From a virus: DNA of 24,563 nt. The stretch spans positions 1-24,563 of IMG/VR virus record IMGVR_UViG_3300046009_007953; one strand, given 5' to 3'. Positions 15,590 to 24,510 of the stretch are shown in pieces. The notes beneath the pieces were generated by a model. That model was given only the letters and a program-made list of their open reading frames with translations. It made no database searches and was not told the DNA's origin. Each line of letters begins with the position of its first letter. The first letter of the stretch is position 1. A program made the translations under genes and the position numbers.

Positions 15590-18022
15590 ATGGCAGACAA
15601 TTCACCAGTTGGCATGATATGGAATGGACTTTTATGGGTTCCAACAGATCCAAAAAAAGCGTCATCTAAATCAAGTCGATACAAACCCACTAATATGAAA
15701 TCCAAAATCGGATTGTCTAAAGCCGACCCTTTGGGTAAATTTTTACCAAACATCGCAAAAGACGTATCCTCAATTAAAGCAAGTCTTTTCTCTCTTGTAA
15801 AAATTCAAGATCAAGAAAAAAAAGCAGCCGCTTTTGAGAAGACGAAAGAAAGGGCATTATCTTACGCCAGAAGGTACTTTAAAACTAAACCTACCAAGCA
15901 AGACAAAAAAGCATTTGAGCCAAACAAAAAAAGTTTTTTGGAAACAATCAAAGATGGTTTAACTAACATCTTTAAATTTGCTCTATTGGGTCTTGGTGCA
16001 ATCGGCGCCAGTAAACTTTTAAGTTTACCTGGTGTGATGGAAGGCATTACTAATTTTGTAAAAAAAGTAATTGTAGGTATTGCCGATCTAATTCAAAAAG
16101 GTACCAAATTTTTAACTGATCTGTTGAAAGATAATGAAGTTATAAACTCAATAGCGGGCGTTCTTAAAACCGTTCTTGGTGCAATTGCTAATGGTCTTTC
16201 AATAGCATCTGATTTTTTGAAAACCATTTTAGGTAACTCTGAAAACCAGAAAAGCATATCGAAAGTAATTTCTTCAGTAATTGGCGTAATCTTCAATGCG
16301 CTGTTGGCATCACTCACAGTTATTGGAAATGTTTTAAATGATAACAAAGATGCGATTGTCACTGGCGTAGTCAAACTATTCACAATTATTGCAAACGGAA
16401 TTGCTGGTGGTTTGAGAATGCTTGGAGACATGATTAGTGATCCTGATTTTAAAAATGCTGTTCAGCAAATATACTTTGCACTCAAAGACTTCTTAACAAC
16501 AATTCTAAATGAACCAATTGCTGAATTGGGTGGTGTGAAAGTAAATCTTAAAATGGCTTTTGTTGGTCTTGCTACTGTAATGGTAGGATTTGAACTTGCG
16601 ATGGCAGGATTCACAGCGTGGCTCGTAAGTAAATTTGTCACTGGTGGATTGAATTTACCTTCTAGGGGTGGTAGAGGAGGAGTAAAAACACCGACAACTG
16701 GAGGTTGGACAAAACCCAGTGCTGAAGTTACTGAGTATATTAGTGGAACAACGGAAAAAGTTGGCGGCACTGCCGGTGGTGGTTTAGTATCAAAAGCAAA
16801 AGGAATGGCAAAAGGTGTCGGTGGCTTTGTTGCGGGTAATGCTGGTAATATAGCCATGGGTGCAGTGACTTTAGGCGGAGCATATATCGGAGCAAGAGAA
16901 GGATATGATGCTTACAAAATGGCAAATGATCCAGAAGCACAAAGAAGAGCAAGAGAAGAAAGAGAATTAAGAAACGCACAAAATTTATCGCCGACAAGAG
17001 GCACCGAAGGACCCGCTTCAGAAAAACAAAGAACAGCGGCAACAACGGTAGCAAAATCTTTTTCAGGAAAATCGGCGGCAGAATTTATAGGATCAATGGA
17101 AGGTTTTGCTAAGAAAGCATATCTTGATCCTCCGGGTAACAATAAAAATCAATACTCAATCGGTTATGGACATCTAATTAAACCGCATGAGATAAAACAA
17201 GGATTCATAAATCTGGGTGATGGTAAGAAAGTTGTTGTAAAGGGTCCCGGTGGAGCAGACACGACAATCAGTGAATCTGAAGCAAAGACATTATTGAATT
17301 CTGATTTACCAAAATATGAAAACATGGCAGTCAGATCAATTGGTTCTGATGCATGGGAAAAACTTGGTCAAGACCAGAGAAATGCACTTACATCATTAGC
17401 TTATAACGGCGGCAAAGGTCAAATTGATTATCTGGTAAGATTTGGCCTAAGAAAAGCTATTATGGAAGGTAATAAAGAAGAGGCAGCAAAAATCATTTAT
17501 GAAAAAGGTTGGAAAACATCTGGCGGAAAATATCTAGCAGGTCTTGAAACCCGCCGCTTAAAAGAAGCATCGTTATTCGGTGGCGGTGCAGCGGCTGAGC
17601 AACTTGCAAAAGCACCGACACCTGCACCAACACCAGAAGCAAGAATATCTGAACAAGCGGGTGCATTTAACATTGCACCAATTTCTTCTGCTGCGGCAGC
17701 AATCTCAGATAAAAAAGTAGAAGTTCTAAAAAGAAGTCAAACTTTTGGACAAAAAGTAAGCCAGTTTGTGCAAGATACTCTGGTTTCTGGTTTGGAAAAA
17801 GGTGGTGATTTCTTAAAAGGCCTAGACGAAATGACCGGTGGCAAACTTGGAATTGCATCGGGTGAATTAGCATCTGCACTTAGAACCAGAGGATTATTTG
17901 AAATGACTCCTGATGTCATTGATGGTTCTAGAAATATATCTTATGCAGACAGAGTGCAAACCAATGAGCCTATTCCAAGTGTATACGATCAAACCCTTTT
18001 GACTAAGTTGAGAATGGCATAA
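15590..18022 (+). CDS. Tape-measure-like tail protein with GH24 lysozyme domain (810 aa)
   Basis: Residues 1-110 are basic and helical. Residues about 115-345 hold many hydrophobic helices (IFKFALLGLGAIGASKLLSL, VISSVIGVIFNALLASLTVI, FVGLATVMVGFELAMAGFTA), the composition of tape-measure proteins. About 365-490 is a Gly/Ala/Arg linker. About 495-645 is a T4-lysozyme-type GH24 muramidase: E504, eight residues, D513, then YSIGYGHL with S523 where the family has Thr; LTSLAYNGG and KTSGGKYLAGLETRR follow. The C-terminus has LDEMTGGKLGIASG (745-758). The next gene has the same plan and is probably a paralogue. AGAAGG lies about 10 bases before the ATG. A role as tape measure or hub-interior enzyme carrier is inferred; T4's tape measure gp29 has no lysozyme. 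Confidence 0.88.
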   Translation: MADNSPVGMIWNGLLWVPTDPKKASSKSSRYKPTNMKSKIGLSKADPLGKFLPNIAKDVSSIKASLFSLVKIQDQEKKAAAFEKTKERALSYARRYFKTKPTKQDKKAFEPNKKSFLETIKDGLTNIFKFALLGLGAIGASKLLSLPGVMEGITNFVKKVIVGIADLIQKGTKFLTDLLKDNEVINSIAGVLKTVLGAIANGLSIASDFLKTILGNSENQKSISKVISSVIGVIFNALLASLTVIGNVLNDNKDAIVTGVVKLFTIIANGIAGGLRMLGDMISDPDFKNAVQQIYFALKDFLTTILNEPIAELGGVKVNLKMAFVGLATVMVGFELAMAGFTAWLVSKFVTGGLNLPSRGGRGGVKTPTTGGWTKPSAEVTEYISGTTEKVGGTAGGGLVSKAKGMAKGVGGFVAGNAGNIAMGAVTLGGAYIGAREGYDAYKMANDPEAQRRAREERELRNAQNLSPTRGTEGPASEKQRTAATTVAKSFSGKSAAEFIGSMEGFAKKAYLDPPGNNKNQYSIGYGHLIKPHEIKQGFINLGDGKKVVVKGPGGADTTISESEAKTLLNSDLPKYENMAVRSIGSDAWEKLGQDQRNALTSLAYNGGKGQIDYLVRFGLRKAIMEGNKEEAAKIIYEKGWKTSGGKYLAGLETRRLKEASLFGGGAAAEQLAKAPTPAPTPEARISEQAGAFNIAPISSAAAAISDKKVEVLKRSQTFGQKVSQFVQDTLVSGLEKGGDFLKGLDEMTGGKLGIASGELASALRTRGLFEMTPDVIDGSRNISYADRVQTNEPIPSVYDQTLLTKLRMA

Positions 18023-20613
18023 TGGCAATTCCTACAATCACCACGCCAACGCCTGAGAAAAGTAATTTAGAAAAAGTATTAGTTAATGTTTCTAAAGATT
18101 TCGCTGCCATAAGAAAAAGTTTTGCTAGACTTAATCTTGGAAAAAAACAAGAGACAGCGATTCGTTCATCACAACAATCTGATGTAAGGCGAACTGCGTA
18201 TAAAGAAAAATTCTCGAAAGTTGTTAAAACCGAAAACATTGATGACGGAAAACGAAATTTAAAAGATACAACAAAAAGTTTTTTTGATTCGTTAAGTTCA
18301 ATCGGTGGAGTTCTAGGCACAGCGTTCGCTTACTTAGGTGTTGCAGGTATCGTAAAAATGTTACTTTCAGCAACAGGCACAGGCAAATATGTGTCTGGAT
18401 TTGTTACGAATATTTTCACATCGATTACAGATTTAATTAAAAAAACTGCCAACTTCTTACTCTCAATATTTCAAGATTCACAAGTTCGTGCGGCATTCGT
18501 AAAAGCATTCTCATCGCTTTTTTCGTTTCTAGGTAGTTTACTTTATGCCAGTTTCTCTCTCATAAAAACTCTGCTTACCGACAACGAAGTTATACAAACT
18601 TTAGGTAGAATTGTCAAATCGATTTTCACAGTCATTTTTGATGGCATTATTATACTAACTGAAATAATTAAAGACTTGTTCAACCAAAACGGTGCAGCGA
18701 TTAAAGATGGTGTAGTACAATTCTTAACTGAAATACTACGAACGCTTACCGTTGCATTTGAAGTTGCGAAAGATGTCTTCACAACAGCGGTAAACAATCC
18801 AGAGTTCATCGATTCGATGAAGAATGTCTTCAAAAATTTTTGGTATCTGATTGTAGAGGCATTTAAACAAGATTACAAAACAGCGTCTGGAGAAACCACA
18901 AATATTTGGTTCGAAATAGGTGAGATCATAGGAAAAATGGCATTATTTTATGGTGCCCTTTTGTCCGCAAAAGTATTATTGATGAAAGCCGTTCGTGATC
19001 TAAGTATGGCTAAATTTGATTTCTCAAAAGAGTGTGATTGTGGTATGGTAGGTCCTGACGATTTGGATAGAGATAAGAAAAAGCCAACTGGTAAAGGAAG
19101 AAAACCGTCAACGAAAAAGGGATCAGTTGGTGACAGATTAGGAAAATTTGGAAGTAACGTTGCAGAAGGTGCAAAAAATCTTTGGGGTAAAGTCAGTTCT
19201 TTTGGTGAGAACATTTACAACAAAGCCAAAGGCTTAGGTAAAGCGATCTATGGATATCTTGAAAATCGTATAAAGAGTTCTGCTCGTTATTTTCGTGCCA
19301 TATTTGGCAATCCATCTTTACGTAAAAAAGTTAATGGTATTATTTTGCAAAAACTTGGTCAAAAAGTCGCAGAGTATTTTGGTAAGTTAGCAACGAAGGC
19401 AACTGTAGCGGCCGCTGGAATTACAACTGGTGGTGTTATTACTGTATTGATGACTGCGTTAGCAGTGGCTGATACGGCGTTATTGCTCTACGCAATTTAC
19501 GAACTTCTATTTGTAACAACTGATGGTGAAAAAGAAGACGGTGGTTATTTTCCACAAATGGCAGCAGAGATAGAAAAATGGCTTAAAGAGAATCCAGAAA
19601 CGACACCTCTACCTGCTCCTGAAGAAGCACCAGTTGCAACACCAAACTTAGCACAATTAAATAAAGAAGGATCAAGAATTGGCGCAGGTTATGCTGAAGC
19701 GGCAGCACCTTCTGTCGCACCTATGCCAATACAAATGGCACCAGCACCAAGATCGACAACTACTCCTTCTCAATCTGCCGTAGCAAGTGCCGAATCTGAT
19801 GTTTCTAAAGCACAAGTAATTGGTGCTGGCAGTGCGGCAGCAACAGCAGCACTGCAAGAAAAAATGAAAAAAGGTGATGTGTCGGCTGAACCTCACGAAG
19901 CTGGAACAGACGTATTAGCACAAAATCTTATGGGATTTGTTCCTGGTTTCAAACAATTCACAGCATTTGATGACGCATTTCATGGTAAAGTATCACCAGG
20001 CTCGAAACACAATTCGGGACTTGCAATAGACTTTACTGTAAATGGCGGTTCAAAAGAATATGCCGCAGCGACAGCCGCAGTTAGAAAACATTTATCAGAT
20101 TTGGGTTTAGGACCTGGTGACGTAAGAGTAATCGATGAGTTGAATAATCCATCTTCTAAAGCAACCGGTCCACACATACATGTTCAGTTTCAATCAAAAG
20201 AAGCGGCTGACAGATACAGAAGTTTATTTCCAAATGTTCAACTCACAGCACTAGCAAAAGAATCGAACGATATTGGTCCTGTTGAAGGAACACCGTTTAC
20301 GATGGCAAAAAATGCTATGCAAGAAATTCCTGAACAAAAACAAAAAAGTTTTGCATCAAAAATGATTGAAGACATGATGGGCGGCATGACAGCACTTGAT
20401 GAGATGTCTGGAGGCAAATTGGGTCTTGCTTCTAGTGATATGAAAAGTTTGATGAGAGGCTTGGAAGATGAACTCAATAAGGGAACAACGTTTATCGACA
20501 ACTCTGTAAAAATAGCATCACAGAAAGTTGAAGAAAGAATAGGCTCACCAAGAAGTGTAGCACAGACAAATGAAAACGTGCTGAGTGCTATTTTGAATCG
20601 ACAAACTACATAA
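18022..20613 (+). CDS. Second tape-measure-like tail protein with M15-like peptidase domain (863 aa)
   Basis: The start overlaps the previous stop (TAATG). The backbone parallels the preceding protein: KDFAAIRKSF near the N-terminus, hydrophobic helices at about 95-340, LLTDNEVI (DNEVI from 187; from 181 in the other) and C-terminal LDEMSGGKLGLASS (792-805). A Lys/Gly-rich linker with the pair ECDCG follows at about 340-375, then a second hydrophobic stretch (about 465-500) and a Pro/Ala linker. Residues about 630-735 form an M15-type zinc peptidase: SKHNSGLAIDF with H663 and D670, and GPHIHVQF with H718 and H720. Such enzymes cut peptide stems of peptidoglycan. It is the last gene of the rightward operon. 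The domain assignment is by motif only; M23 is less likely because of the H-x6-D pattern. Confidence 0.87.
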   Translation: MAIPTITTPTPEKSNLEKVLVNVSKDFAAIRKSFARLNLGKKQETAIRSSQQSDVRRTAYKEKFSKVVKTENIDDGKRNLKDTTKSFFDSLSSIGGVLGTAFAYLGVAGIVKMLLSATGTGKYVSGFVTNIFTSITDLIKKTANFLLSIFQDSQVRAAFVKAFSSLFSFLGSLLYASFSLIKTLLTDNEVIQTLGRIVKSIFTVIFDGIIILTEIIKDLFNQNGAAIKDGVVQFLTEILRTLTVAFEVAKDVFTTAVNNPEFIDSMKNVFKNFWYLIVEAFKQDYKTASGETTNIWFEIGEIIGKMALFYGALLSAKVLLMKAVRDLSMAKFDFSKECDCGMVGPDDLDRDKKKPTGKGRKPSTKKGSVGDRLGKFGSNVAEGAKNLWGKVSSFGENIYNKAKGLGKAIYGYLENRIKSSARYFRAIFGNPSLRKKVNGIILQKLGQKVAEYFGKLATKATVAAAGITTGGVITVLMTALAVADTALLLYAIYELLFVTTDGEKEDGGYFPQMAAEIEKWLKENPETTPLPAPEEAPVATPNLAQLNKEGSRIGAGYAEAAAPSVAPMPIQMAPAPRSTTTPSQSAVASAESDVSKAQVIGAGSAAATAALQEKMKKGDVSAEPHEAGTDVLAQNLMGFVPGFKQFTAFDDAFHGKVSPGSKHNSGLAIDFTVNGGSKEYAAATAAVRKHLSDLGLGPGDVRVIDELNNPSSKATGPHIHVQFQSKEAADRYRSLFPNVQLTALAKESNDIGPVEGTPFTMAKNAMQEIPEQKQKSFASKMIEDMMGGMTALDEMSGGKLGLASSDMKSLMRGLEDELNKGTTFIDNSVKIASQKVEERIGSPRSVAQTNENVLSAILNRQTT

Positions 20614-22071: not shown

Positions 22072-22657
22072 CGTATTCCTTTTTGAGTATAAGTTTATAT
22101 TTTGTTTGTTCAAACGGTATGAACGGTGTATACTTTTTTATTTTTCGACTGATGTTAGGATAGTGAATGGTATCACCGATTTTCTTATCCCATGACGGTA
22201 AGAAGTTGAGTATCTTATTCAGTATACAGATTGATTCCAGCGAAATTTCATCATGCAAAAGTTTCTGTAGCAATTCCGGATACTCACCGTCATGTACTAT
22301 TAATGAATCATTTGGGCTCTCCTGACTCATTAATGATTCAATATCATTCGTAAAGGTGTACGTCAACGATTGAACAATTTTCTGTCGTTTACGATACTCA
22401 ATGTCTGCATCATTGGTCAGAAGATGGCCTATCCAGACATCATGGTTATTAACCAAATTAGCAACAATATAATCACGGCATATGTCAGCATTTGTGAATC
22501 TCCGACTGAGTTTATAAAAGTGCCACTTATCTTTACGATTCTCAAATGCACCAATGCTTGTGCTTACCTTACCATTGTACTTAAAGTAATCGTAAGAATC
22601 TGAATTAAAGTGGAGTTTAAGAGAAGTGTATATACAGAATGCTTCATATCCTGTCAT
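22046..22657 (-). CDS. 59: Helicase loader gp59-like (203 aa)
   Basis: The N-terminal pattern YDYFKYNGK (22-30), ENRKDKWHFYKLS (39-51), then DYIVANLVNNHDVWIG (62-77) lines up with T4 gp59 (217 residues), which reads YDVIKYN, KRRDKYFFQKLS and FISNLVANQDAWIG at the same places. The C-terminal half has SLESICILNKILNFLPSWDK, like the family's second helical domain. gp59 binds forked DNA and gp32 and loads the gp41 helicase. Its start overlaps the gp33 stop in ATGA (22654-22657), so the two are coupled. The order 33-59-32 matches T4 apart from the inserted nucleotidase. Confidence 0.88.
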   Translation of the reverse strand: MTGYEAFCIYTSLKLHFNSDSYDYFKYNGKVSTSIGAFENRKDKWHFYKLSRRFTNADICRDYIVANLVNNHDVWIGHLLTNDADIEYRKRQKIVQSLTYTFTNDIESLMSQESPNDSLIVHDGEYPELLQKLLHDEISLESICILNKILNFLPSWDKKIGDTIHYPNISRKIKKYTPFIPFEQTKYKLILKKEYDANTENIS

Positions 22658-22878
22658 ATCGGTAAACGATTGCCTTTCACTTTCAACATATTCAAACGTT
22701 CTGCTTGTTCATGAATTTTTGCTTTAAGATTTGGTGTAATGAGTGAAGCAGCAACCTCAATTTCCAAACCAGTCTCTTTGCAGTGTTCGGTGATAGCCTC
22801 AAGATATGTATAATCTGTATTGGCCACCAATCTCTCAATCTGCAAAGAAAACTTCAGCATTTCATCTTTTGTTGGCAT
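22654..22878 (-). CDS. 33: Late transcription coactivator gp33-like (74 aa)
   Basis: The small protein starts MPTKDEMLKFSLQIERLVA and continues YTYLEAITEHCKETGLEIEV, AASLITPNLKAKIHEQAE. This is the pattern I know for gp33 in T4-like cyanophages; T4 gp33 is longer (112 residues). gp33 binds the RNA polymerase beta flap and links it to the sliding clamp for late transcription, working with gp55. It starts in a TAATG overlap with the upstream 143-residue gene and overlaps gp59 by four bases. The short length and weak information content keep this slightly below certainty; position next to 59 and 32 supports it. Confidence 0.85.
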   Translation of the reverse strand: MPTKDEMLKFSLQIERLVANTDYTYLEAITEHCKETGLEIEVAASLITPNLKAKIHEQAERLNMLKVKGNRLPI

Positions 22879-23309
22879 TAGAATTGAACTCTAATTTTGC
22901 TGCCTGTGCTACTTGGCAATTCTGCCGACCACGATGCTGCCATGCCTGCAGGTGATGCTGATAGTGGTATATCATGAACAGACAGTGCTTTAATTTGTGC
23001 CGATGTCAATGGTTGGATATCAGCAGTAGTCAAAGATTGTACAGGCTGACCTAGACCAAATGGCCATCCATTGTTAGGCAAGTGATCCATAGAAAACTTA
23101 TCTTGATTGGGTGTTTCTTCTTCATAAGTTTCATATGGCACGACTTCAATCGTGCCTTCGATTTGATAACCACAACCCTGCAAAAAGTCTCTCATAAAAG
23201 AAAGAATGTCATCAACATACAAGGCGTTACAGTTCATCTCCAAATCTCGTTCGCCTTCGGCAGAATGGAAGCGAAATGTAAAATTGTGTTCATCACTATT
23301 GTAACTCAT
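22878..23309 (-). CDS. Hypothetical protein with an LTxxDI-type repeat (143 aa)
   Basis: No function recognised. Residues 1-60 look like a small alpha/beta domain (FTFRFHSAEGERDLEMNCNA, then YVDDILSFMRDFLQGCGYQI), a type I recall near gp33/gp59 in marine T4-like phages. Residues 61-90 are acidic and Pro/Gly-rich. Residues 92-116 hold three short repeats (LTTADIQP, LTSAQIKA, LSVHDIPL), similar to repeats in surface and adhesin proteins. The C-terminus is Ser/Ala-rich and ends SSTGSKIRVQF. GGGAG lies about 9 bases before the ATG. It is coupled to gp33 by a TAATG overlap. Confidence 0.82.
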   Translation of the reverse strand: MSYNSDEHNFTFRFHSAEGERDLEMNCNALYVDDILSFMRDFLQGCGYQIEGTIEVVPYETYEEETPNQDKFSMDHLPNNGWPFGLGQPVQSLTTADIQPLTSAQIKALSVHDIPLSASPAGMAASWSAELPSSTGSKIRVQF

Positions 23310-23323
23310 AATATAATCTCCCT

Positions 23324-23545
23324 TTATTTACGATTAGCAGCGTGTGCAATACAAACAATATCATCACTCTTGGCATATGAACACCGTACAGCCAATGGGT
23401 CAATACCTTTTGCAATAGCGTTTTCAATATTTGCTGCCATCAGTTTACGGTCGTTTAAACCATAGATACATGCCGCAGCAACGATTGAAAGTAAAACCAA
23501 AGTAACTGAAACTGTGGTTATACTACTCAATCCTTTTTCCATCAT
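23324..23545 (-). CDS. Small single-pass membrane protein (73 aa)
   Basis: Starting MMEKGLSSITTVSVTLVL, the protein has one hydrophobic segment at about residues 8-28 (TVSVTLVLLSIVAAACIYGL) and a soluble C-terminal part with KGIDPLAVRCSYAKSDD and VCIAHAANRK. I recall small phage proteins with the same 'KG-DPLA-RC' element but know no function. AAGGAG lies just upstream; it suits the first ATG poorly (3 bases) and the next codon, also ATG, well (6 bases), so the true start may be 23542. A longer frame to 23575 overlapping the SleB gene in ATGA is also possible. Because it follows a secreted wall hydrolase, a holin- or spanin-like role can be imagined but is unproven. Confidence 0.72.
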   Translation of the reverse strand: MMEKGLSSITTVSVTLVLLSIVAAACIYGLNDRKLMAANIENAIAKGIDPLAVRCSYAKSDDIVCIAHAANRK

Positions 23546-23571
23546 CTTCTCCTTTTTGCTTGATAAAATAC

Positions 23572-24123
23572 TCATGAATTTTTCTTTGCCTTATTGTAGA
23601 ATAAATGTCTACCTATTTGTGTGGTATATCTCATATTATTCCAACCCGGTTTTACATAGTCTGCATGAAAGAACAAAGCGCCTTTTGTTGGATCTTTAAA
23701 CTTTTCTGTGTAAAGATAAAACGCCAACGCTAACTCAGTAACACTATTATACAACGAATTGCTCTCTAGTGTCAAGAGGCCTTTTCGCATCATATCCTTA
23801 GGACGATTCTCACATACCCAAGAAAATTGACAAACAGTACCGACCTTTTGTTTTACAACACCACAATAGGTATTTGGAAATACGCCAGACTGCATTCTAT
23901 TGTGTGTAACAAATGCTACAGCAAGTTGACCTAATCTTGGTTCTAGACCTGCTTCAAAATACATGTTCTGTGCAAGGCATTCTACTTCAGCCCTAGCATC
24001 GGGTGATAAATCTTGTAATTGAACTCTCGGTTCAATCGGTATTCTTATTTGTGCTGCTGCATGTCCGATGTAAACAACAAATGCTGCGAATATACTACAA
24101 AGTAATAGTGTGATGTAACGCAT
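23572..24123 (-). CDS. Secreted SleB-type cell wall hydrolase (183 aa)
   Basis: Residues 1-24 form a signal sequence (RYITLLLCSIFAAFVVYIGH, then AAAQ with likely cleavage near residue 24). The rest is the Hydrolase_2 (SleB) family: VECLAQNMYFEAGLEPRLGQ (48-67) with E57 as the probable catalytic Glu, VAFVTHNRMQSGVFPNTYCG, VCQFSWVCENRP and the C-terminal ALFFHADYVKPGW. SleB-like enzymes act on peptidoglycan as glycosidases or transglycosylases; in phages they serve as endolysins. The N-terminal segment could be cleaved or act as a signal-anchor-release. GGAG lies 6 bases before the ATG. It may overlap the following small membrane-protein gene. Confidence 0.9.
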   Translation of the reverse strand: MRYITLLLCSIFAAFVVYIGHAAAQIRIPIEPRVQLQDLSPDARAEVECLAQNMYFEAGLEPRLGQLAVAFVTHNRMQSGVFPNTYCGVVKQKVGTVCQFSWVCENRPKDMMRKGLLTLESNSLYNSVTELALAFYLYTEKFKDPTKGALFFHADYVKPGWNNMRYTTQIGRHLFYNKAKKNS

Positions 24124-24142
24124 TATTTCTCCTATAAGTTAG

Positions 24143-24162
24143 GAGAGTGCCAAAGCACTCTC
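24143..24162. other. Perfect hairpin in the gap before the SleB gene
   Basis: GAGAGTGC / GCACTCTC form an 8-bp stem with a CAAA loop, between the stop of the 90-residue gene and the SleB start. Neither strand has a T run after the stem, so it is not a standard terminator. It could be an RNA-processing or stability element that separates expression of the two genes. Confidence 0.55.
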
Positions 24163-24169
24163 GTTCCCG

Positions 24170-24442
24170 TCAGGCAGTTTTTTTGCTCTGTGATTTTTCT
24201 GCTGTGATATTTGAAACGAACCCATTCAAGGACTGTGCCTTGGTGATGATCTCGGTTTCTGTGGGATAAGTTGGAAAGGCTGGATGTTCAGGTATTGCTT
24301 GTCCGTTTAACTTAGCGGACTCTACCTTTACTTGCCATTCATTGATTAAGCGATCTTTGCCGGAATGATATTCTTCCAACAAAAGGTCTTTCGCCATTTT
24401 AAGAAGTTCAAGACGAATCTCGAACGGTGTAAGATTACTCAT
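24170..24442 (-). CDS. Conserved-type small hypothetical protein (90 aa)
   Basis: A helical, charged protein starting MSNLTPFEIRLELLKMAKDL, with central EWQVKVESAKLNGQ, a Pro-rich stretch IPEHPAFPTYPTETEI and C-terminal KAQSLNGFVSNI, ending in Lys/Ser. I recall very similar 'LTPFEIRLELLKMAK' proteins in T4-like marine phages, without known function. GGAG lies 6-7 bases before the ATG. It has a 5' region of about 90 bases with a promoter-like motif and an inverted repeat. Confidence 0.85.
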   Translation of the reverse strand: MSNLTPFEIRLELLKMAKDLLLEEYHSGKDRLINEWQVKVESAKLNGQAIPEHPAFPTYPTETEIITKAQSLNGFVSNITAEKSQSKKTA

Positions 24443-24466
24443 AATTACTCCTGTGTGTTGTGTGTT

Positions 24467-24498
24467 TACTGGCGGATTGTGTGTGTGTGATGCCAGTA
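24467..24498. repeat. Inverted repeat flanking a (CA)n/(GT)n run
   Basis: TACTGGC (24467-24473) and GCCAGTA (24492-24498) are perfect 7-base inverted repeats around an 18-base loop containing gtgtgtgtgtg. The right arm overlaps the -10-like TATACT on the minus strand. A second GT-rich patch lies at 24452-24465. This could be an operator or leader hairpin of the 90-residue gene. Confidence 0.5.
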
Positions 24499-24510
24499 TA
24501 CTTATTTAGT
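24493..24510 (-). promoter_or_regulatory. Late- or sigma70-type promoter motif upstream of the 90-aa gene
   Basis: Minus strand reads ACTAAATAAGTATACTGG. CTAAATA resembles the late-promoter core of T4-like cyanophages, and TATACT, three bases later, resembles a sigma70 -10 box. Both lie about 55-70 bases upstream of the ATG at 24442 in the only clear gap upstream of this operon segment. Which one is used cannot be told from sequence; no convincing -35 is seen. Confidence 0.4.

Follow-up and report, generated by a model that had tools for sequence, protein, structure and literature searches.

A SleB-type cell wall enzyme and a small membrane protein encoded as a pair in the late-control operon of freshwater T4-like phages: a possible accessory endolysin

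Among the described systems closest to the locus reported here, Tgl of Kayvirus is a secreted extra endolysin that works together with LysK (excerpt of PMC7150955). SleB-type enzymes are set apart from another endolysin or lysozyme in the phages CB7 (PMC7344957), DLP6 (excerpt of PMC5349666) and AKFV33 (excerpt of PMC3326045), and the Certrevirus SleB is toxic on expression (PMC7344957). SleB domains are classed with the lytic transglycosylases (excerpt of PMC6403190). The available part of PMC11148199 describes the SleB glutamate as catalytic and reports a SleB homologue that is toxic in E. coli, needs this Glu and is neutralised by a predicted periplasmic immunity protein; on its expression E. 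coli cells round and burst. A search of the open-licence PMC literature returned, in the portions of text covered, no description of a SleB gene paired with a small gene in a T4-like phage. We compared the SleB regions of ten named phages. The hydrophobic N-terminal stretch of SleB was above threshold in seven of them, while the two T5-like SleB have short signals as judged by eye and the SleB of MD18 has none. A small two-helix gene lies directly beside SleB in three of the ten (ACP17, CR3 and CHOED) and one gene away from it in DU_PP_I; it was not seen by SleB in five, and nom could not be judged.

The DNA analysed here, called the window below, is a 24,563-base fragment of a T4-like phage (IMGVR_UViG_3300046009_007953) with gp32, gp59, gp33 and structural genes. 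We found 235 related loci, which are redundant and overlapping and comprise 76 that are distinct by their SleB, small and gp33 proteins, and we compared 15 long records. The related phages that bear the SleB gene and the small membrane gene form a freshwater group. Among the matches listed, the named gp32 proteins nearest to that of the window belong to Synechococcus phages and Pelagibacter phage HTVC008M (54-59% identity); no SleB is annotated in the stretch around gp32 of this pelagiphage or of the cyanophages S-CREM1 and QB2. A periplasmic-binding-type protein of one long relative (G001) has, among 80 genome loci listed, its best match in an uncultured bacterium (75%) and its second in Undibacterium (71%), and the lower-ranked matches are mostly from betaproteobacteria. 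This is a weak lead to a betaproteobacterial host, which would therefore be Gram-negative.

A sequence-only reading had proposed that an exported SleB-type enzyme and a 73-residue protein with one membrane segment, encoded among replication and late-control genes, may act as endolysin and pinholin or regulator. The operon has the following features, in the order of transcription:

24502..24509, minus strand: CTAAATAA, a motif resembling a late promoter, ahead of the operon (CTAAATA in relatives)
24170..24442, minus strand: 90-aa gene, first in the operon, with no Pfam, PHROG or PADLOC match
24143..24162, minus strand: RNA hairpin in the SleB 5' leader, 8-bp stem, loop UUUG, with covariation in 22 sequences
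23572..24123, minus strand: SleB-type (Hydrolase_2) cell wall enzyme of 183 aa, PF07486, predicted N-terminal Sec signal at residues 1-24 (site between AAA and Q)
23324..23575, minus strand: small single-pass membrane protein, 83 aa from the ATG in the ATGA overlap, 73 or 72 aa from 23545 or 23542
23549..23553, minus strand: AGGAG ribosome-binding motif of the short form, located within the stretch that only the long form has
22878-23309, minus strand: 143-aa fast-changing gene, with a weak phrog_935 match and an ALTTAQ repeat only
22654-22878, minus strand: gp33 late coactivator (PF16805, E 9.3e-19)

Both genes proved real, and their location in the replication/late-control operon, outside the structural block, was confirmed, as they sit upstream of gp33, gp59, NT5C and gp32. 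The two are adjacent on the same strand with SleB first in 231 of the 235 loci, and the contigs of the remaining four (L037, L078, L209 and L210) begin at the small gene or immediately ahead of it. The length of 73 residues likewise held, for an internal start (23545).

The window SleB matches Pfam PF07486 (Hydrolase_2) over residues 61-176 with E 1.2e-21 and 77.6 bits (cut-off 27), a cut-off that is also exceeded in all 15 long relatives, and it matches the PHROG endolysin family phrog_938 with E 1.7e-20. A profile built from 16 relatives matches the PDB SleB entries 4f55 and 4fet (E 4.9e-8 and 2.8e-7) with the conserved Glu aligned, and Glu57 is invariant in the 16 aligned rows. The phage SleB did not reach the cut-off of the spore SleB equivalog TIGR02869 (45 bits vs 236.5). 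The structure model of SleB was set aside at a mean pLDDT of 42.3. Matches to SleB were present by tblastn in 1020 of 50,697 phage records.

SleB starts with a short basic segment, continues with a hydrophobic one and then shows a site of signal-peptidase type. In 68 distinct SleB proteins, position 24 (-1) is always Ala and position 22 (-3) is always small (A in 41, S in 17, G in 5 and T in 5), with h-region peaks of 1.63-2.33 as read from the sequences without SignalP. The 68 proteins were chosen by their start motif and an [YF]FEA motif and therefore the conservation of those motifs was left uncounted. With these n, h and c regions SleB would belong with the signal-peptide endolysins of the Lys44/Fletchervirus type, and the export signal proposed earlier is best read as a cleavable Sec signal. 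SAR endolysin anchors are weakly hydrophobic, rich in Gly and Ala and without a c-region; this reading of the SleB N-terminus was rejected, as Gly and Ala make up just 10-20% of residues 3-22 and the AXA-type site is conserved. A thiol switch like that of P1 Lyz, which has a free cysteine in its anchor, was not adopted as a reading, since Cys9 occurs in 62 of the 68 proteins and is Ser or Gly in the other six. Four cysteines of mature SleB are conserved in 67 of 68 proteins when a one-residue shift is tolerated, which would fit an oxidising compartment.

The ATG of the long form of the small gene overlaps the SleB stop by four bases (ATGA, 23575-23572). As proposed, the small protein has one hydrophobic segment: the 19-residue Kyte-Doolittle profile of the 72-aa form peaks at 2.42 in the span beginning at residue 8 and has no second peak above 1.0. 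About 45 residues follow the helix and carry the motif N-[DE]-R-[KR]-L-M-x2-N-I-E-x-A-I-x-K-G-[IV]-D-P-L-x-V-R-C-[ST]-Y-x4-D-x2-C, in which both cysteines are present in 64 of 64 distinct sequences. The predicted model has helices at 3-45, 49-56 and 62-70 with one cysteine in or near each short helix (mean pLDDT 78.7), and its overall arrangement is uncertain because pTM is 0.39. Searches of Pfam, PHROG, PADLOC and NCBIfam, holin families included, gave no match; a PDB fold search gave 17 matches, all at E 5.1 or worse. By tblastn, named phages had no match to the window protein at E 0.01 or to the version of locus L132 at E 10, and none of 38 pattern matches in bacterial genomes was a relative. 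The small protein thus represents a conserved family without a name in the libraries searched.

The stretch from the SleB stop to the short-form ATG is 26, 29, 32 or 35 nt long, so that the frame is kept, and is free of stops in all 44 unique strings, whereas the other two frames have stops in 13 and 16 of them; the SleB leader by contrast varies freely at 46, 47 or 48 nt (47 unique leaders). The 44 strings are related by descent and therefore represent few independent events. The upstream ATG is present in 42 of the 44 and lost in two, and in the deepest clade (L233, L236, L243, L244 and L254) an upstream TTG is the sole start, so the dual start is not universal. Dual-start holins have two conserved in-frame starts. 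We read most members as carrying two usable starts, from which an identity as a dual-start holin does not follow.

Three described types of lysis protein were considered and rejected for the small protein. The pinholin S of phage 21 has two membrane helices of which the first is a SAR segment, whereas there is a single hydrophobic peak of 2.42 here and no Pfam or PHROG match. Class III holins of the T4 T type form their own sequence family with a large periplasmic domain; again no Pfam or PHROG match was found, and just about 45 residues lie past the helix. Identity with the Mu releasin was rejected as DUF2730 is absent, with zero Pfam families matched. The synonymous divergence of the small gene (23324-23542) to close relatives is several-fold below that of SleB and gp33 (0.02 vs 0.31 and 0.29 in L086), and to distant relatives it is ordinary. 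A hidden overlapping frame was rejected, as of the two remaining sense frames one is open in 1 and the other in 0 of 64 sequences, and the antisense frames in 4, 31 and 3 of 64. With no overlapping gene, the low synonymous rate to close relatives is left without explanation.

The SleB and small genes overlap in most loci, and the NG86 dN/dS is at most 0.32 for either gene in all 15 computable comparisons. Their identities to the window correlate at 0.86 across the 76 distinct loci (a raw value that includes kinship), which ties with gp33-NT5C as the highest of all gene pairs. In two loci a near pair sits on a distant backbone: L109 has 89% identity to the window in SleB and 88% in the small protein, but 68% in gp33, 53% in gp59, 56% in NT5C and 71% in gp32, and for L102 the values are 90% and 86% against 65, 55, 55 and 73%. 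We take this to mean that the two genes moved as a unit. The 90-aa gene accompanied the transferred pair in L102, and none was detectable in L109. Six of the 76 distinct loci have a diverged SleB (72-77%) yet a conserved small protein (90-96%). Identity in the 143-aa gene, which separates the pair from gp33, is as low as about 25%, against conserved genes on either side.

The SleB operon carries what appears by sequence to be a late-type promoter motif. Of 64 distinct upstream sequences, 62 contain CTAAATA at 58-64 nt ahead of the start of the 90-aa gene (a raw occurrence count), and by raw occurrence NTAAATA also stands ahead of structural genes, namely gp25, gp48 and sheath-like genes. It is similar to the T4 late TATAAAT (excerpt of PMC3037559). 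As the operon also holds gp33, gp59 and gp32, the late-type motif need not concern lysis. By eye, a second conserved stem, TACTGGC...GCCAGTA, follows the late-type motif and precedes the 90-aa gene (within 24442-24509).

The leader hairpin stands upstream of the SleB AGGAG at 24129-24133, and its loop is UUUG in the window and UUCG (CUUCGG) in most relatives. In 22 sequences 97.2% of cells are paired and all eight pairs change on both sides, with a covariation of 0.720 vs 0.312 in shuffled alignments; none of 500 shuffles reached its pairing, double changes or covariation, and further pair types were not above shuffles (260 of 500). A stem of at least 7 was found in 44 of 48 leaders vs 15% of simple shuffles, in a survey in which at least one best stem lies at another place. 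By eye, the window also shows a second leader hairpin that would mask the ribosome site of SleB; it was dropped because many relatives differ in sequence there.

The sequence-only reading of the pair as the phage's lysis system was not supported, for three long relatives (G001, G002 and G004) each contain a separate lysis cassette elsewhere in the genome, made up of:

a protein of 145 aa with a membrane helix, coiled-coil-like, with weak Rz-like matches
a lipoprotein of 86 aa whose gene overlaps the 145-aa gene, matching the Rz-like spanin phrog_456 (E 1.3e-5)
a GH19-type endolysin of 205 aa without a signal, matching phrog_181 (E 7.6e-76 and 5.5e-78)
a second lipoprotein
a protein of 155-158 aa with two strong hydrophobic peaks
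a protein of 75 aa with a clear hydrophobic peak (2.31) and a weak one (1.32)
an exported protein of 65 aa

Endolysin and spanins of a canonical system are thus present elsewhere in these three relatives, while its holins, the 155-158-aa and 75-aa proteins, are only candidates by size and place. The GH19-type endolysin is below the cut-off of PF00182. In G001 (172,439 bases) the terminal 100 bases of either end are found again near the opposite end. A full-length GH19 gene occurs in 3 of the 15 long records, the same three that have a ribonucleotide reductase gene 3.3 kb further on; the cassette region is missing from the 12 remaining, shorter records, so that nothing follows for them, and SleB is present in all 15. 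The 24.6-kb window does not span the cassette region.

A hub-like protein of the window (15590-18022) has a PF00959 lysozyme domain, as in G001 and G008, and G005, G006, G014 and G015 have instead a 689-692-aa frame with a GH19-like stretch at 41-43% identity. Among relatives, the tail enzyme seems to have been exchanged. An 863-aa protein (18022-20613) without a Pfam match at 0.01 has near its C-terminus an HxxGxAxDF...HIH stretch that is M15 peptidase-like by eye, and an S-CREM1 gene at a like place is annotated as M15 metallopeptidase.

We favour, at about even confidence, the explanation that SleB is an accessory signal-peptide endolysin, co-translated with the membrane protein and serving as a helper in bursting the cell rather than as the main lysis system. 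It draws on the type of export signal, the domain, the pairing, the late-type motif, the hairpin and the cassette in relatives. The sequence-only reading is partly supported. In the course of events that we infer, SleB would be made late, exported by Sec and freed of its signal, and the mature enzyme would cut glycan strands in the periplasm of a Gram-negative bacterium, supplementing the GH19-type endolysin, which is cytoplasmic and released by the separate cassette. The small protein would be co-translated from the overlapping start and lie in the inner membrane with N-in/C-out topology, its periplasmic tail possibly forming a hairpin paired by a disulfide between the cysteines. It would most likely modulate the exported SleB, perhaps by contact, either restraining it until the membrane collapses or helping at release. 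As a holin, regulator or functional partner the small protein is a candidate only, and its role may lie in restraint, in release or apart from SleB; the regulator proposed earlier is possible. An immunity-type inhibitor of a periplasmic SleB would fit in gene order, pairing and co-transfer only.

That the pair itself is the lysis system, with the small protein triggering the exported endolysin as a pinholin, would account for the export signal, the tight pairing and the late-type motif, and for the in-frame second start with its 44 stop-free strings, as in some holin genes; it is nevertheless very unlikely given the endolysin/spanin cassette found in each of the three relatives whose records include the region, the single helix, the lack of a holin family match and a dual start that is not universal (TTG in the deepest clade, two strings without the upstream ATG). 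Still more improbable is a SleB used at entry as a virion protein, as some phage murein enzymes are. The PF00959 domain in the tail-hub-like protein means that the virion already has a murein enzyme, which can be counted for this role, but the secretion signal is conserved in 68 of 68 proteins and the gene lies outside the structural block. A SleB whose export serves to loosen or reshape the wall in the course of infection, making assembly space, releasing wall material or excluding other phages, would suit its place among replication and late-control genes away from the lysis cassette, and SleB is likewise separate from the remaining lysis genes in T5-like, Vequintavirinae and T4-like phages. 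We consider this role unlikely, since the promoter motif is of late type, a SleB homologue bursts E. coli (excerpt of PMC11148199) and the Certrevirus SleB is toxic (PMC7344957). A defence-system reading was rejected, as four proteins searched had no PADLOC match.

A less improbable alternative is that the small protein has an envelope function of its own, for example against superinfection, and is a mere operon neighbour of SleB. It has a relative in Pseudomonas phage ZY21 (Nickievirus; profile E 1.6e-5), hhalign against a nickie/ZY21/SBP1/G016 set gives a probability of 86.5%, and Foldseek against the nickie and SBP1 proteins gives 0.97 (E 0.13 and 0.29). PF07486 was not found in these four records, and the remote relatives adjoin a replicative helicase or lie in an early-looking region, away from lysis genes. 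The family is therefore wider than the pair, the small protein need not regulate SleB, and it may have a job of its own beyond SleB. Against this, the small gene and SleB occur together in every one of the 235 loci that is not truncated, the small gene was co-transferred with SleB in L102 and L109 and overlaps it in most loci, and nickie, SBP1 and G016 were not among the hits of a profile search of genomes at E up to 1; we regard an independent function as somewhat unlikely. Small single-pass proteins with a G-x-x-P...C...C tail, possible remote relatives, are encoded beside replication genes or tRNAs in Nickievirus and Electravirus phages (L355 43817-44116, L359 2001-2225 and L358 2444-2722).

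The accessory-endolysin explanation can be extended to a mobile, two-gene second lysis module in which an exported SleB-type lytic transglycosylase is restrained by a membrane-tethered periplasmic inhibitor of two forms, the leader hairpin tunes synthesis of the enzyme, and the two-helix partners in ACP17, CR3 and CHOED are unrelated solutions to the same need; this is speculative, and we think it improbable as a whole. Exported SleB-type enzymes are widespread in phages and often labelled 'the endolysin', though several such phages have another. If they are accessory and checked by small membrane partners, phage lysis annotation needs correcting, and the partners would be a new sort of endolysin control.

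Compared with known systems, of which Kayvirus Tgl and the Certrevirus pair are the nearest precedents, our SleB would resemble Tgl as a phage-coded, Sec-secreted lytic transglycosylase beside a separate major endolysin, but Tgl has a Gram-positive host, an IsaA/SceD-like fold family and an early-type promoter, and the excerpt of PMC7150955 mentions no paired membrane protein. The gp22/gp25 releasin system of phage Mu has, as may be the case here, a single-pass membrane protein acting on an exported endolysin; gp25 however is N-out/C-in, contains DUF2730 and acts on SAR endolysins (excerpt of PMC9239132). In Firehammervirus F379 an exported endolysin has an overlapping neighbour, F379_024, which delays and reduces lysis, but this gene is upstream and encodes 106 aa, and the endolysin is, unlike our SleB, an SLT with a membrane anchor and a coiled coil (excerpt of PMC7692668). 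In Certrevirus CB7_83/CB7_82 a signal-peptide SleB-like hydrolase is followed by an overlapping small membrane gene, with a separate endolysin; the small gene encodes a candidate class II holin with two helices, unlike our single-helix protein (PMC7344957). The CR3 partner matches phrog_10205 whereas our small protein matches nothing, and the Certrevirus pair lies outside a T4-like gp33-gp59-gp32 operon, unlike ours. In Acidovorax phage ACP17 (NC_041997) the small membrane gene is upstream of SleB, overlaps its start and encodes two helices, whereas ours is downstream with one helix, and ACP17 had no match to our small-protein profile. Still, as in the window, SleB of ACP17 stands directly before gp33 (PF16805, E 3.6e-12), gp59 and gp32 and, as in our long relatives, another annotated endolysin, gp101, is encoded elsewhere in the part of ACP17 covered, up to its last 7 kb.
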